Positions 35,540 to 39,669 of a stretch of DNA of 64,000 nt are shown here, in pieces. The notes under the pieces were generated by a model, which was not told where the DNA came from, did not search any database, and saw only the letters and a program-made list of their open reading frames with translations. The stretch is from NCBI RefSeq assembly GCF_014646055.1, contig NZ_BMMS01000002.1, forward strand, positions 203,729 to 267,728, in the 5' to 3' direction. The position numbers and the translations under genes were made by a program. This DNA comes from Wenjunlia tyrosinilytica (GTDB lineage: Bacteria; Actinomycetota; Actinomycetes; Streptomycetales; Streptomycetaceae). The number at the start of each line of letters is the position of its first letter. Position 1 is the first letter of the stretch.

Positions 35540-35545
35540 TACCCT
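35540..35545 (+). promoter_or_regulatory. -10 box of a leaderless promoter
   Basis: TACCCT ends 8 nt before GTG 35554. No Shine-Dalgarno is present, so the next gene is probably transcribed from its start codon, independently of the mannosidase operon 34 bp upstream. Confidence 0.5.
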
Positions 35546-35553
35546 TGCTCTCT

Positions 35554-36276
35554 GTGACCGTGTCGCTTCCTCTCTTCCCCCTCAATTCGGTTCTCTACCC
35601 GGGGCTCGTCCTTCCCCTGAACGTCTTCGAGGACCGCTACCGCCGACTCGTGGCGGACCTCGAGGCGCAGCCCGAGGACGTTCCCCGGCGGTTCGGGGTG
35701 GTGGCGATCAGGGACGGCAGCGAGGCCGCTCCCGTGGCGTCCTCGGGCAATGAGGCGGCGGGCGCCGCCGCGGGGTTCGGCAAGGACCTGACGAGGTCGC
35801 TGTACCCCGTGGGGTGCGTTGCCGAGATCGCCTCGGTCCAGACGCTGGGCGACGGCAGCTCGGAGCTGATCTCCTCGGGCACGACCCGTTTCCGTGTGCT
35901 GGCGATCGACGCGACGGGGCCGTATCTGACCGCCGAGGTGGAGGAGCTGCCGGAGCAGCGGGGCGACGGGGCGGGTGCGCTGGCGGCGGGGGTCGCGCGG
36001 GCGTTCCGGACGTACCAGCAGAGGCTGGCGGGGGCCCGCGAGAGTACGTTGACGGCCCTGCAGGAGCTGCCGGACGATCCGTCCGTGCTGTCGTACCTGG
36101 TCGCCGCGGCGACCGTCGCGGACACCGCGGTCAAACAGCGGCTGCTGGAGGCCCCGGACACGGCGGCCCGGCTGTCCGCCGAGCTGGAGCTGCTGCGGCG
36201 GGAGATCGCGGTGCTGCGCGAGCTGCCGTCGCTGCCCGCGGTGGAGCTGACGCGCAAGGCGCCCAGCCCGAACTAG
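35554..36276 (+). CDS. LON peptidase substrate-binding domain protein
   Basis: The 240-residue protein is a stand-alone version of the Lon N-terminal substrate-recognition domain: VSLPLFPLNSVLYPGLVLPLNVFEDRYRRL is the classical start, followed by GVVAIRDG, VGCVAEIASVQTL and a C-terminal helical bundle. No ATPase or protease domain follows. Such proteins are widespread in actinobacteria and their role is unclear. I start at GTG 35554, which fits the leaderless promoter; TTG 35545 is an alternative. The YbaK gene starts 8 nt downstream of its stop. Confidence 0.85.
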   Translation: MTVSLPLFPLNSVLYPGLVLPLNVFEDRYRRLVADLEAQPEDVPRRFGVVAIRDGSEAAPVASSGNEAAGAAAGFGKDLTRSLYPVGCVAEIASVQTLGDGSSELISSGTTRFRVLAIDATGPYLTAEVEELPEQRGDGAGALAAGVARAFRTYQQRLAGARESTLTALQELPDDPSVLSYLVAAATVADTAVKQRLLEAPDTAARLSAELELLRREIAVLRELPSLPAVELTRKAPSPN

Positions 36277-36284
36277 GAGGGGTC

Positions 36285-36854
36285 GTGGGCAGGAAGGCAG
36301 TCGACAGGAAGGGCGCCGACAAGAAGGGCGCCGACAAGAAGGGCGCGGACAGGAAAGGCGCGGACAGGAAGGGCAGGGGCGGCGGGGGGACGCCGGCGAC
36401 CGTGGCGCTGACCTCGGCCGGGGTGGCGTTCACCGTGCACTCCTACGAGCACGACCCCTCGGTGGCCGGTTACGGGGAGGAGGCGGCCGCGGCGATGGGC
36501 ACGGACCCCGGGCGCATCTTCAAGACGCTGGTCGCCGATGTGGACGGGGCGCTGACCGTGGCCGTGGTGCCGGTGACCGGGGCGCTGGACCTCAAGGCCC
36601 TGGCGGTCGCGGCCGGGGGCAAGAAGGCGGCCATGGCGGACCCGGCTGCGGCCGAGCGCACAACGGGCTACGTGCGCGGCGGCATCTCCCCGCTGGGGAT
36701 GCGCAAGCGCCTGCCGACGGTGGTGGACGCGACGGCGCTGGCCCACGAGACGGTCTTCGTCTCGGCGGGCAGACGCGGGCTGGAGGTCGAACTCGTCCCG
36801 GCCGACCTCGTCCGCCTCACCTGCGCCGCCACGGCCGCGATCGGGAAGCCCTGA
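36285..36854 (+). CDS. YbaK/EbsC-family Cys-tRNA(Pro) deacylase-like protein
   Basis: The 189-residue protein has the YbaK fold: PGRIFKTLVADVDG with the functional Lys, followed by VVPVTGALDLKALA and the late YVRGGISPLGMRKRLP. These editing enzymes hydrolyse mischarged aminoacyl-tRNA. GTG 36285 follows TAGGAGGGG. The first 30 residues are an unusual basic extension of 5-residue repeats (DRKGA, DKKGA), encoded by five 15-bp units at about 36302-36373. That segment is absent from typical YbaK proteins and may help bind RNA or simply be an expanded repeat. Confidence 0.85.
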   Translation: MGRKAVDRKGADKKGADKKGADRKGADRKGRGGGGTPATVALTSAGVAFTVHSYEHDPSVAGYGEEAAAAMGTDPGRIFKTLVADVDGALTVAVVPVTGALDLKALAVAAGGKKAAMADPAAAERTTGYVRGGISPLGMRKRLPTVVDATALAHETVFVSAGRRGLEVELVPADLVRLTCAATAAIGKP

Positions 36855-36953
36855 TCACCCGAGAGTGATCGTCCGTGCGCGAGGGGTTGTGTGGACAGTC
36901 CAGTGCGGCGACTATCCGACAAACACACTCCGACGCTGCGGAGAGGACGCGAC

Positions 36954-37028
36954 ATGCCATCGAAGCGAAGCCGCAAACGCAAAGCGCGCCGCAGACGCAA
37001 AGCCAACCACGGCCGACTCCCCGCCTGA
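36954..37028 (+). CDS. Candidate 50S ribosomal protein bL37 (24 aa)
   Basis: A 24-codon ORF encodes a peptide beginning MPSKRSRKRKARRRR and ending KANHGRLPA. About 60 percent of its residues are Lys or Arg. The 24-residue length, the K/R-rich head and the KANHG tail closely match mycobacterial bL37 as I remember it (M. smegmatis bL37, 24 residues, ending KANHGKRPNA), a protein found in cryo-EM of the 50S subunit. GGAGAGGA lies 6-8 nt before the ATG. Codons such as AAA, CGA and AGA are atypical for this genome, as expected for a short basic gene. It is too short for normal gene callers. Confidence 0.65.
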   Translation: MPSKRSRKRKARRRRKANHGRLPA

Positions 37029-37060
37029 CCGAACGGGCCCGCCCCCGCGGCGCCGGAACG

Positions 37061-37738
37061 TCAGCTCTGGTCCTTGCCGGGGGCGGGCGGTGGATCGGCG
37101 CTCTCGGGGGAGCCCCAGCCGGGCCAGTCGGGCAGGGGCGGGGACGGGTCGCGGGGGCCGAAGGCGGCGGTGAGGATCAGATGGCCGGCCATCGCCAGGG
37201 CGGGCCAGGCCAGCAGGGCGCCCTTGGCCTGGAGTTTCAGCGGGCCGTCGAAGACCTTGCCCGAGCCGACCTCTTTGGCGTGGGCGACGATGTCCGACGT
37301 CGGCCCGAGCGCCATCCCGAGGCGCCAGCCGACCACCGAGGCCAGCACCGCGCCCACGGCCAGCCCGATCACCACCGCGATACCGCCGGTGCGGCGCAGC
37401 AGGAAGACCACCAGTGCGCTCAGCAGGCCGAAGGCCGCCCCCAGCAGGGTGAACCAGCCGTCGATCCCGATGGCCTGCTCGCCCTCGCTGTCCTTGAGGT
37501 ACACCGCCTTGCCGTCCGAGATCATCGGTATCCGGGGCGCCAGCCACAGCCACGCCAGTCCGAGCAGCACTCCGGAGACGGCGACCGCGAGGGCCACGAT
37601 CGCGCCCGCACGCGCGTCCTTGGCCAGGTCCTGCGTGCTGTGGCGCGGACCGATGCCGCTCGAACCCGGCAAAGGCTCACCCTCCTCGGCTGGAGCGGCG
37701 TACGGATGCGGTCCGGGGGGAGTCTTCGGTGCGGTCAC
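37061..37738 (-). CDS. Four-helix membrane protein (DUF2567-like)
   Basis: The 225-residue protein starts VTAPKTPPGPHPYAAP. A Pro-rich cytoplasmic N-terminus precedes four membrane helices (about residues 47-70, 98-118, 126-150 and 176-196). The first extracellular loop reads RIPMISDGKAVYLKDSEGEQAIG. The C-terminal tail is Pro-rich. This layout resembles the actinobacterial DUF2567 family of unknown function, an assignment made from overall pattern and therefore tentative. It converges with the bL37-like ORF. Confidence 0.6.
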   Translation of the reverse strand: MTAPKTPPGPHPYAAPAEEGEPLPGSSGIGPRHSTQDLAKDARAGAIVALAVAVSGVLLGLAWLWLAPRIPMISDGKAVYLKDSEGEQAIGIDGWFTLLGAAFGLLSALVVFLLRRTGGIAVVIGLAVGAVLASVVGWRLGMALGPTSDIVAHAKEVGSGKVFDGPLKLQAKGALLAWPALAMAGHLILTAAFGPRDPSPPLPDWPGWGSPESADPPPAPGKDQS

Positions 37739-37794: not shown

Positions 37795-38625
37795 CTACCT
37801 CGTCGCTGCCCGTCGGTACGCCCACGTGGCGACGGCCAGCGATGCGACGCCCACGCCCGCGCACACCGAGAGGTCCGCGAGGACCGCCACCCAGTCGGGT
37901 GAGGCGTCGAAGGAGCGGGCGAAGGCCTCCACACCGTAGGTGGAGGGCAGCAGATCCCGCAGCCACTGGATCGGGGCGGGGAGGTTGGAGGCCGGCAGCA
38001 CGCCCAGCAGGAGCGCCGCGGACATCCCCATCTGACCGAAGAGGGTCGCCAGCTCCTGGCGGGGGGCGAGAAGCCCCAGCGCGGCCCCCAGACCCGCCAG
38101 CGCGGCACCGGCCAGGGGTATGACCGCCGCCAGCACCCACAGGTGCGCCAGGGGCAGACCGAACAGCGCCGAGCCCGCCACCGCCGTCACCACCGCCCCC
38201 GGGACCGTGAAGGAGGCATACGCGGCCGCCGCGCCCAGCACCACCGACGCCGGGGGCACCGGGAGGGTGGCATAGGTGTCGAGGCCGCCGGAGGCACGCA
38301 GTGAGCCGAAGTACTGCGCCAGCAGGTTCAGCGCGACGAAGGCCACGACGAGAACGCTCGAGCCCGCCACGACGGCCCGCGCCGCCTCGCCGTCACCGCC
38401 GTCCACCACCCCGCGCATCATGATCATGATGCCCACGGACTGGAAGGTGGCCACGAACAGCAGCGGCATCCTGGCCACCCGCGCCCTGGACAGCTGGGCA
38501 CGGTAGACGGCGGCCAGCGAGGGCAGCAGACGGGCCCGCGGGGCCAGCGGGGCGGCCTCGGCCGCCGCCACCGGCTCTTGGCGCAGGACCGGGACCAGGG
38601 CCTCGGCCGGAACGGTGCTCACCAC
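37795..38625 (-). CDS. ABC-2 type transporter permease
   Basis: The 276-residue protein has six hydrophobic segments in the ABC-2 arrangement, with the family region LRASGGLDTYATLPVPPASVVLG after the second helix and LPSTYGVEAFAR near the last. It starts at GTG 38625 with GAGGGG 5 nt upstream, 13 bp after the ATPase gene's stop. With that ATPase it should form a small exporter of unknown substrate. Confidence 0.88.
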   Translation of the reverse strand: MVSTVPAEALVPVLRQEPVAAAEAAPLAPRARLLPSLAAVYRAQLSRARVARMPLLFVATFQSVGIMIMMRGVVDGGDGEAARAVVAGSSVLVVAFVALNLLAQYFGSLRASGGLDTYATLPVPPASVVLGAAAAYASFTVPGAVVTAVAGSALFGLPLAHLWVLAAVIPLAGAALAGLGAALGLLAPRQELATLFGQMGMSAALLLGVLPASNLPAPIQWLRDLLPSTYGVEAFARSFDASPDWVAVLADLSVCAGVGVASLAVATWAYRRAATR

Positions 38626-38638
38626 GGATTCCCCTCGT

Positions 38639-39661
38639 TCACTGCTTCACCAGGCCCTCTCCCCTGCCGCCCAGCATCAGGTACACGTCCTCCAGGCTCG
38701 GCGTGGCCAGGGTGAAGTCGTCCAGCGCGGCGAACGCGGGGCCGCCGGTCACGGTGGCCACCACCGCCCGCGCCTGATCGTGCGGCATCCGCAGGCTCCA
38801 GCGGCGGCCGGAGCACTGGGCCCGGCCCTCCAGCGCGGCGATCTCCGGGACGCTCAGCGGCGGGTCCTCCCGCCACACCAGGTCGAGCCTGACCTCGCCC
38901 GCCACGAGCGCCTTGAGCCCGGCCGGGGTGTCGCACGCGATGACGCGGCCCCGGTCGATGACCGCCACCCGGTCGAGCACGGTCTCGGCCTCGATCACAT
39001 TGTGGGTCACCAGCAGGACCGTGGTGCCGCGCTCGGCCCTGCGCCGGTCCACGGCCGCCCACACCGCCCGCCGGGCCACCGGGTCCATTCCCGTGGTGGG
39101 CTCGTCGAGCACCAGGACGGGCCGCTCGCCGACGAGCACGGCGGCGAAGCACGCCAGCCGCCGCTGGCCACCGGACAGGCGCCGGATGGGGCGCGAGGCC
39201 AGCTCCTCCAGGCCGAGTTCGGCCAGGACCTCGTCCCGCCGGGCCCTGGCGGTGCGCACGTCGAGTCCCCGCAGCCGGCCGGTGGTCTCGGCGGCCAGCG
39301 CCACGGTGAGGTCGTCCAGGGCGCTGGAGTCCTGCCCGAGGTAGCCGATCAGGCGCGAGGCGCGGTCGGGGTGGCGCACCAGGTCGTGGCCGAGGACGTC
39401 CACCGTCCCCGAGTCGGGCCTGAGCAGGCCGGTGAGCTGGCGCACGAGGGTCGACTTTCCGGCGCCGTTGGGCCCGAGGATCCCGAAGACCTCGCCGCGG
39501 CGCACGTCGAAGGTGATGCCGTCGTTGGCGCGCACGGCCGCGGCGGGGGCTGAGCGGCCGCGCCCGCCGGGGTATGTCCTGACCAGGTCGCGTACGGTGC
39601 ACACGGCCTCGCGGGCCTGCGCGGCGGCCTCGGCCGTCATCGGTCCTGTACGCGTACTCAC
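38639..39661 (-). CDS. ABC transporter ATP-binding protein (ABC-2 exporter)
   Basis: The 340-residue DrrA/CcmA-like ATPase has Walker A GPNGAGKST (about residue 65), signature LSGGQRRLACFAA, Walker B VLVLDEPTTGMD and switch His VTHN. A roughly 90-residue C-terminal extension follows, as is common in this group. I start at GTG 39661 because TACTCT lies 8 nt upstream, giving a leaderless transcript. It pairs with the downstream permease. Confidence 0.9.
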   Translation of the reverse strand: MSTRTGPMTAEAAAQAREAVCTVRDLVRTYPGGRGRSAPAAAVRANDGITFDVRRGEVFGILGPNGAGKSTLVRQLTGLLRPDSGTVDVLGHDLVRHPDRASRLIGYLGQDSSALDDLTVALAAETTGRLRGLDVRTARARRDEVLAELGLEELASRPIRRLSGGQRRLACFAAVLVGERPVLVLDEPTTGMDPVARRAVWAAVDRRRAERGTTVLLVTHNVIEAETVLDRVAVIDRGRVIACDTPAGLKALVAGEVRLDLVWREDPPLSVPEIAALEGRAQCSGRRWSLRMPHDQARAVVATVTGGPAFAALDDFTLATPSLEDVYLMLGGRGEGLVKQ

Positions 39662-39669
39662 GACCAACG

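Follow-up and report, generated by a model that had tools for sequence, protein, structure and literature searches.

Does a reading frame of 24 codons, lying behind a gene for a tRNA deacylase, encode the small ribosomal protein bL37, and what place would such a gene have in a genome with a second, unlinked copy? The window (the whole stretch of 64,000 nucleotides analysed) belongs to genome G000, which shares its genus (g1) with one other genome in our set, G001. We consider it likely, with a probability of about 0.82, that the frame encodes a bL37-type ribosomal protein, its place on the ribosome being deduced from published structures.

A short reading frame in a slot of its own

The features of the locus, in window coordinates, are:

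35545–36276, plus strand: LON substrate-binding-domain protein, 5′ of YbaK (PF02190, 138 bits; start codon provisional)
36285–36854, plus strand: YbaK/EbsC-type Cys-tRNA(Pro) deacylase gene (TIGR00011, 175.5 bits against a cut-off of 153.25; PF04073)
36940–36947, plus strand: Shine-Dalgarno-like GGAGAGGA, with the ATG 6 nt further 3′ (read directly)
36954–37028, plus strand: reading frame filed in the bL37 family, type C, MPSKRSRKRKARRRRKANHGRLPA; ATG, 24 codons, TGA (read directly)
37061–37738, minus strand: 225-residue protein, convergent with the bL37-family frame and the right border of the slot (start picked by eye)
37795–38625, minus strand: ABC-2 type transporter membrane protein (PF01061), context only
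38639–39667, minus strand: ABC transporter ATPase (PF00005), context only

Direct reading bore out what the preliminary description had said of the frame itself, namely an extremely basic ATG-to-TGA frame of 24 codons with a ribosome-binding sequence before it and a gene-sized intergenic slot of its own. Eleven of the first 16 residues are Lys or Arg, and the gap housing the frame measures 206 bases, from the YbaK stop (36854) to the end of the opposite-strand gene (37061). YbaK, whose GTG start was picked by eye, serves as the syntenic marker 5′ of the slot, and the LON-domain gene adjoins it in most family loci read, providing a conserved slot context. At its N terminus the YbaK protein is extended by Lys-rich repeats in tandem (RKGADKKGADKKGADRKGADRKG, window 36286–36390). 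The 225-residue protein found no match in Pfam or in NCBIfam. A scan of 36800–37150 for sigma-70-type promoters found none, which we count against the bL37 reading, and blastn of the 301 bases around the frame against plasmids yielded no match. A tblastn search of plasmids and phages with the peptide was likewise empty, but it has no bearing on mobility, since the low-complexity filter probably hides a query this basic.

The frame is real and under strong protein-level constraint. The slot copy of G001 (MPSKRSRKRRARRRRRANHGRLPA) is identical to the window peptide at 22 of 24 residues, both replacements being Lys to Arg. In this genus comparison, which rests on two genomes, substitutions affect 13.5 of 19.2 synonymous sites but 2.5 of 49.8 non-synonymous ones (pN/pS 0.07), and variable sites fall at codon positions 1, 2 and 3 in 2, 2 and 12 of the 24 codons. 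The preliminary description had named the substitution pattern as a check, and the pattern observed is unlike that of non-coding DNA. For the family types A and B defined below, pN/pS was 0.27 (49 distinct sequences) and 0.25 (50), counts that pool all pairs of related sequences and hence pairs that are non-independent.

Relationship of the peptide to bL37

NF047428, the NCBIfam model of bL37, was the sole NCBIfam match up to E 10 (E 6.7e-7, 29.4 bits), with residues 3–23 aligned (positions 2–22 of 24). The score is 0.6 bits short of the curated cut-off of 30, so the model would not name the peptide; we count this against the bL37 reading and file the gene as a bL37-family homologue, not a certified equivalog. 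No Pfam model matched, nor did bS22, bTHX or other small basic ribosomal proteins in NCBIfam or Pfam up to E 10, negatives that are limited by the HMMER filters, which drop most weak matches. In the PDB, five sequences matched up to E 10 and every one is a bL37, although one bears only the label ‘peptide’ and some have additional names; the top match was Cutibacterium acnes 8CRX (E 0.01, residues 4–23 aligned). Among 14 control genomes searched with NF047428, Corynebacterium glutamicum alone matched at E ≤ 0.001 or 0.01; Caulobacter joined it at E ≤ 0.1, and five matched at E ≤ 10. The bL37-like identity claimed in the preliminary description is thus upheld by profile, PDB matches, conservation and coding constraint, and the mycobacterial ending that it gave, KANHGKRPNA, was read at locus L006.

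A six-frame NF047428 search of the whole 8.49-Mb assembly at E ≤ 10 returned two places: the window frame (E 8.1e-5) and an unlinked copy, P0002 (G000:C14:4504-4566, E 2.1e-4), which encodes MSSKRRRKRKARRRRGANHGKLPAS. The stop codon of this second copy is closely followed by short direct repeats (gtgaggaactgct), at about 1398–1490 of locus L002. At the C terminus, the window peptide has the ANHG motif and a Pro, with Leu two residues after NHG. Across 135 distinct bL37-like peptides, a set chosen for [N/S]HG, this position is Arg or Lys in 132; Leu occupies it in the remaining three, of which two come from G000 (the window copy and P0002, L002 1492–1569) and one is the slot copy of G001. The Leu is a possible sign of changed contacts, and we count it against the bL37 reading. 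Its presence in both copies, specific to the genus, points to duplication or gene conversion between them, or else to joint adaptation to a changed pocket.

Global BLOSUM62 scores, with one peptide per type, place the window copy nearest to P0002 (92), followed by types D (78), A (72), B (68) and E (63), C. acnes (61) and M. tuberculosis (53). By this measure the slot occupant in genus g1 looks A-like rather than B-like, with replacement, conversion or co-adaptation as candidate routes. These scores also bear on the strongest alternative, that P0002 supplies the main ribosomal bL37, the window gene being a paralogue that arose by relocation or conversion and is used only under certain conditions or is being lost. 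The presence of two copies in the genome, the closeness of the window copy to P0002 (92, against 68 for type B in the same slot) and the fact that it scores lowest against M. tuberculosis bL37 of the types compared are all in keeping with such a history. Against it, G001 has the slot copy only, by NCBIfam and A1 profile searches, and that copy is strongly constrained; the bL37 model also gives P0002 fewer bits than the window copy (27.9, under the 30-bit cut-off). We regard P0002 as the main copy as unlikely, though the alternative deserves to be kept in mind.

bL37 types and their neighbourhoods

To place the slot in context, we located YbaK in 60 of the 61 genomes of the family that were searched; in 13 of the 60 it is followed on its 3′ side by a basic small frame with NHG (G000, G001, G162, G183, G129, G253, G257, G260, G268, G270, G276, G292 and G297). 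The other 47 YbaK slots lack a bL37-like frame, which counts against the bL37 reading; in this count, L127 and L135 end less than 1 kb past the YbaK stop, and in L102 the YbaK frame runs on. A looser rescan of all 60 loci at full length recovered the same 13, together with additional matches unlike bL37. Among 80 named YbaK loci, several of them cut by contig ends, 27 have a bL37-like frame, which in L283 lies about 1.8 kb from YbaK; carriers include Streptantibioticus ferralitis, Streptomyces phaeochromogenes, S. longispororuber and S. indicus, and the highest YbaK identity to the window (82%) belongs to Streptantibioticus ferralitis. Type B (MSKRTRKRKWR...ANHGRRPA) and its variants make up the remaining slot copies; type C was observed in genus g1 alone.

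At least five bL37 types (A–E) occur in the family, and their genomic settings vary, an unusual situation for a ribosomal protein. Their neighbourhoods were tallied on 99 loci of 5–10 kb, chosen from search matches and so not representing natural frequencies; 93 could be parsed, the remainder being L214, L218, L220, L221, L229 and the family locus L186, which has a longer type A-like frame. Type A is a lone gene found mostly towards contig ends: none of its 39 loci has SigR, RsrA, YbaK or Kdp genes nearby, and neighbours do not recur beyond small groups. Types B and C occupy the YbaK slot, the window copy being type C; YbaK adjoins type B in 12 of 13 loci, with L201 as the exception. Type D (MSKRARKKKARR..KANHGRKPGQ and variants) has a short-chain dehydrogenase beside it in all 11 loci (L202, L203, L206, L384-L391), often with Kdp genes (KdpB in seven, KdpA in six and KdpC in three) and in five with an amino-acid permease. 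A paralogue of a ribosomal protein thereby has potassium-uptake genes as neighbours. Type E (MSKRGNKRRARKKKGANHGKRPNA and variants), with YbaK, SigR or Kdp nearby in none of 12 loci, is nearest the mycobacterial and Cutibacterium proteins, scoring 86 against M. tuberculosis bL37 and reaching 49.5 bits against NF047428. Three further family loci hold other forms outside the types.

DNA patterns were run on 200 genomes of the family: that for type A matched in 104 (one in the reversed control) and that for type B in 34 (none in the control), the latter an undercount since the pattern requires ATG and type B frames with a GTG start in G340 and G341 escape it. Both patterns matched in eight genomes; the idea that A and B exclude one another was dropped, as kinship alone could explain the rest. 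With NF047428, 140 of the 200 match at E ≤ 0.01 and 54 have a match over the cut-off. The A1 profile, for which at most 43 candidates per genome were scored, matches 158 at E ≤ 0.1, with up to four bL37-like matches per genome. Nineteen of the 42 genomes without an A1 match were re-searched by a pattern blind to the RLP tail, which revealed a type B-like frame in G254 and none in the other 18; G331 and G352 also have a B-pattern match though they lack an A1 match. Loss of bL37 in some family genomes looks real, its apparent extent being an upper bound, and together with the 47 empty slots this suggests that the protein may be dispensable.

Type A copies lie closer to contig ends, at a median distance to the nearer end of 7.5% (28 copies) compared with 27% for type B (six) and 32% for type E (six); the difference is significant (Mann-Whitney p 3.4e-4) on contigs over 6.4 Mb with contig ends taken as chromosome ends. 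Three of the 28 type A copies lie beyond 30%, and one of the six type B copies at 4%. Of 54 type A copies, 13 have a motif, TGTGnnAnnnTGGA, at about −50 from the start codon (L166, L170 and L160 among them), against 0.02 expected from shuffles, and none of 26 type B copies has it; the count was made on the very sequences in which the motif had first been spotted by eye. Zinc control of the extra copies through Zur was considered and rejected, a strict Zur-like core being found 5′ of none of 54 type A, 26 type B and 15 other copies.

Beyond the family, NF047428 matched 56 of 246 genomes of the phylum at E ≤ 0.1, where the weakest may be chance matches, and 195 of 296 genomes of the class, window family included, at E ≤ 0.001. 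The genes sigR/sigH and rsrA/rshA encode a thiol-stress sigma factor pair. They lie near bL37 in all 12 class-level loci outside the family (L210-L215 and L217-L222), which are all such matches of the phylum search (11 through protein clusters, L210 through tblastn). The labels were checked on two RsrA (TIGR03988) proteins and one SigH-type (TIGR02947) protein. In most of the 12 the pair is adjacent to bL37; it is about 2.6 kb off in L218 and about 1 kb in L219. None of eight loci from more distant genomes of the phylum shows the association, and none of 12 sigR loci of the window family, those of G000 and G001 included, has a bL37-like frame within about 1.5 kb, a reach that a distance like that in L218 would escape. 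Unlike the 12 class-level genes, then, the window gene is not at a sigR/rsrA locus, and we count this against the bL37 reading. YbaK lies within about 2.1 kb of bL37 in five of the same 12 loci; the two may have been neighbours in an older cluster, of which the slot copy would be a remnant. Among the open-access papers listed, there was no account of bL37 beside sigR/rsrA and no description of streptomycete bL37 types, although the distribution figures of PMC5876184 (Figs S10-S11) may list streptomycetes.

These distributions qualify the preliminary description of the gene as ‘the Streptomyces orthologue’. It is a bL37-family gene, and the family of its genome is taken to be the Streptomycetaceae because most of the named YbaK relatives belong to Streptomyces, but its genus is g1 and not the large genus g2; the definite article does not survive the second, unlinked copy in the genome, the several types in the family and the closer approach of type E to the mycobacterial protein.

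On a tentative and rather unlikely reading, the family types could be alternative isoforms, A–E, with separate homes and probably separate regulation, exchanged under potassium limitation, thiol stress or antibiotics. A gene linked to sigR/rsrA across the class would have become a set of types in the Streptomycetaceae, housed in the YbaK slot, on the chromosome arms with an upstream motif of their own, and in the dehydrogenase-Kdp potassium cluster; swaps at a pocket close to the peptidyl-transferase centre might then tune ribosomes to potassium limitation, thiol stress or ribosome-targeting antibiotics. The literature offers two items that are no more than hints: SigR is induced by translation-inhibiting antibiotics (PMC4921905), and a title cited in PMC5472717 connects Zur and sigma-R with alternative ribosomal protein genes of S. 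coelicolor.

A probable place on the ribosome and known counterparts

In M. smegmatis, bL37 consists of a helix of about 13 residues and a loop; the pocket that it occupies is made up of H39, H40, H41/H42, H72 and H89, the last of which it contacts on the buried side, and bL37 is said to be limited to actinobacterial species (PMC5876184). The C. acnes protein also contacts the 5S tip, and its authors propose a link between functional centres (PMC10085706); the exact function was stated as still open in 2018 (PMC6133939). By comparison with these structures, the Lys/Arg-rich N-terminal half of the window protein would be a short helix and the ANHGRLPA tail would make a loop, the two together filling a 23S/5S rRNA pocket close to the peptidyl-transferase centre that is lined by H39, H40, the H41/H42 joint, H72 and H89. 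From there the protein would support both H89 and the 5S rRNA tip, and the window gene would presumably be one of two interchangeable copies in the genome.

A peptide so basic could instead act mainly off the ribosome, for instance as an antimicrobial, an effect reported for C. acnes bL37, which inhibits the growth of Staphylococcus epidermidis and S. aureus (PMC10085706), and the patchy, relocated copies of the streptomycetes might suit such a role. We consider this improbable: inspection of the 24 residues by eye shows no export signal, the neighbours with Pfam matches (two genes upstream and two transporter genes downstream) are not of the antimicrobial-peptide type, and the structurally solved relatives are ribosomal chains. 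A chance frame in GC-rich DNA, which a short, Arg-rich frame overlapped by other open frames might bring to mind, is very improbable indeed and already contradicted by the codon-position pattern against G001, the recurrent slot and the profile match.

A ribosomal bL37 in the window would matter for two reasons. The protein adjoins the peptidyl-transferase centre and 5S rRNA, and antibiotic producers that have multiple divergent copies in new locations, or in some cases apparently lack the gene, would be natural material for studying its function. In addition, a family cut-off can leave a 24-codon ribosomal protein gene unnamed.

The same rRNA pocket is occupied in Borreliella burgdorferi by the N-terminal extension of uL30 (PMC10618245), a functional analogue only, which is part of a larger protein and has no separate gene. 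Streptomyces coelicolor likewise has small ribosomal proteins in more than one version, the Zur-controlled, cysteine-less rpmG/B and rpmF paralogues (PMC5472717), but the bL37 peptides lack a zinc-ligand pattern by eye. The best PDB match, C. acnes bL37, is seen in structure 8CRX within the pocket, below the tip of 5S rRNA (PMC10085706); its tail is KRPNA where the window has RLPA, and in L219, which encodes the same stretch as C. acnes bL37, the gene is the one about 1 kb from sigR/rsrA.

With the bL37 of Mycobacterium smegmatis and M. tuberculosis (for example PDB 5o60/5o61 and 7kgb) the window protein shares a length of 24 residues, a Lys/Arg-rich N-terminal half, the ANHG motif and a Pro near the C terminus. 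The tails differ, GRLPA in the window and GKRPNA/S in mycobacteria, as do the settings: the window gene stands beside YbaK and has a second genomic copy, whereas mycobacterial bL37 stands beside sigH/rshA.
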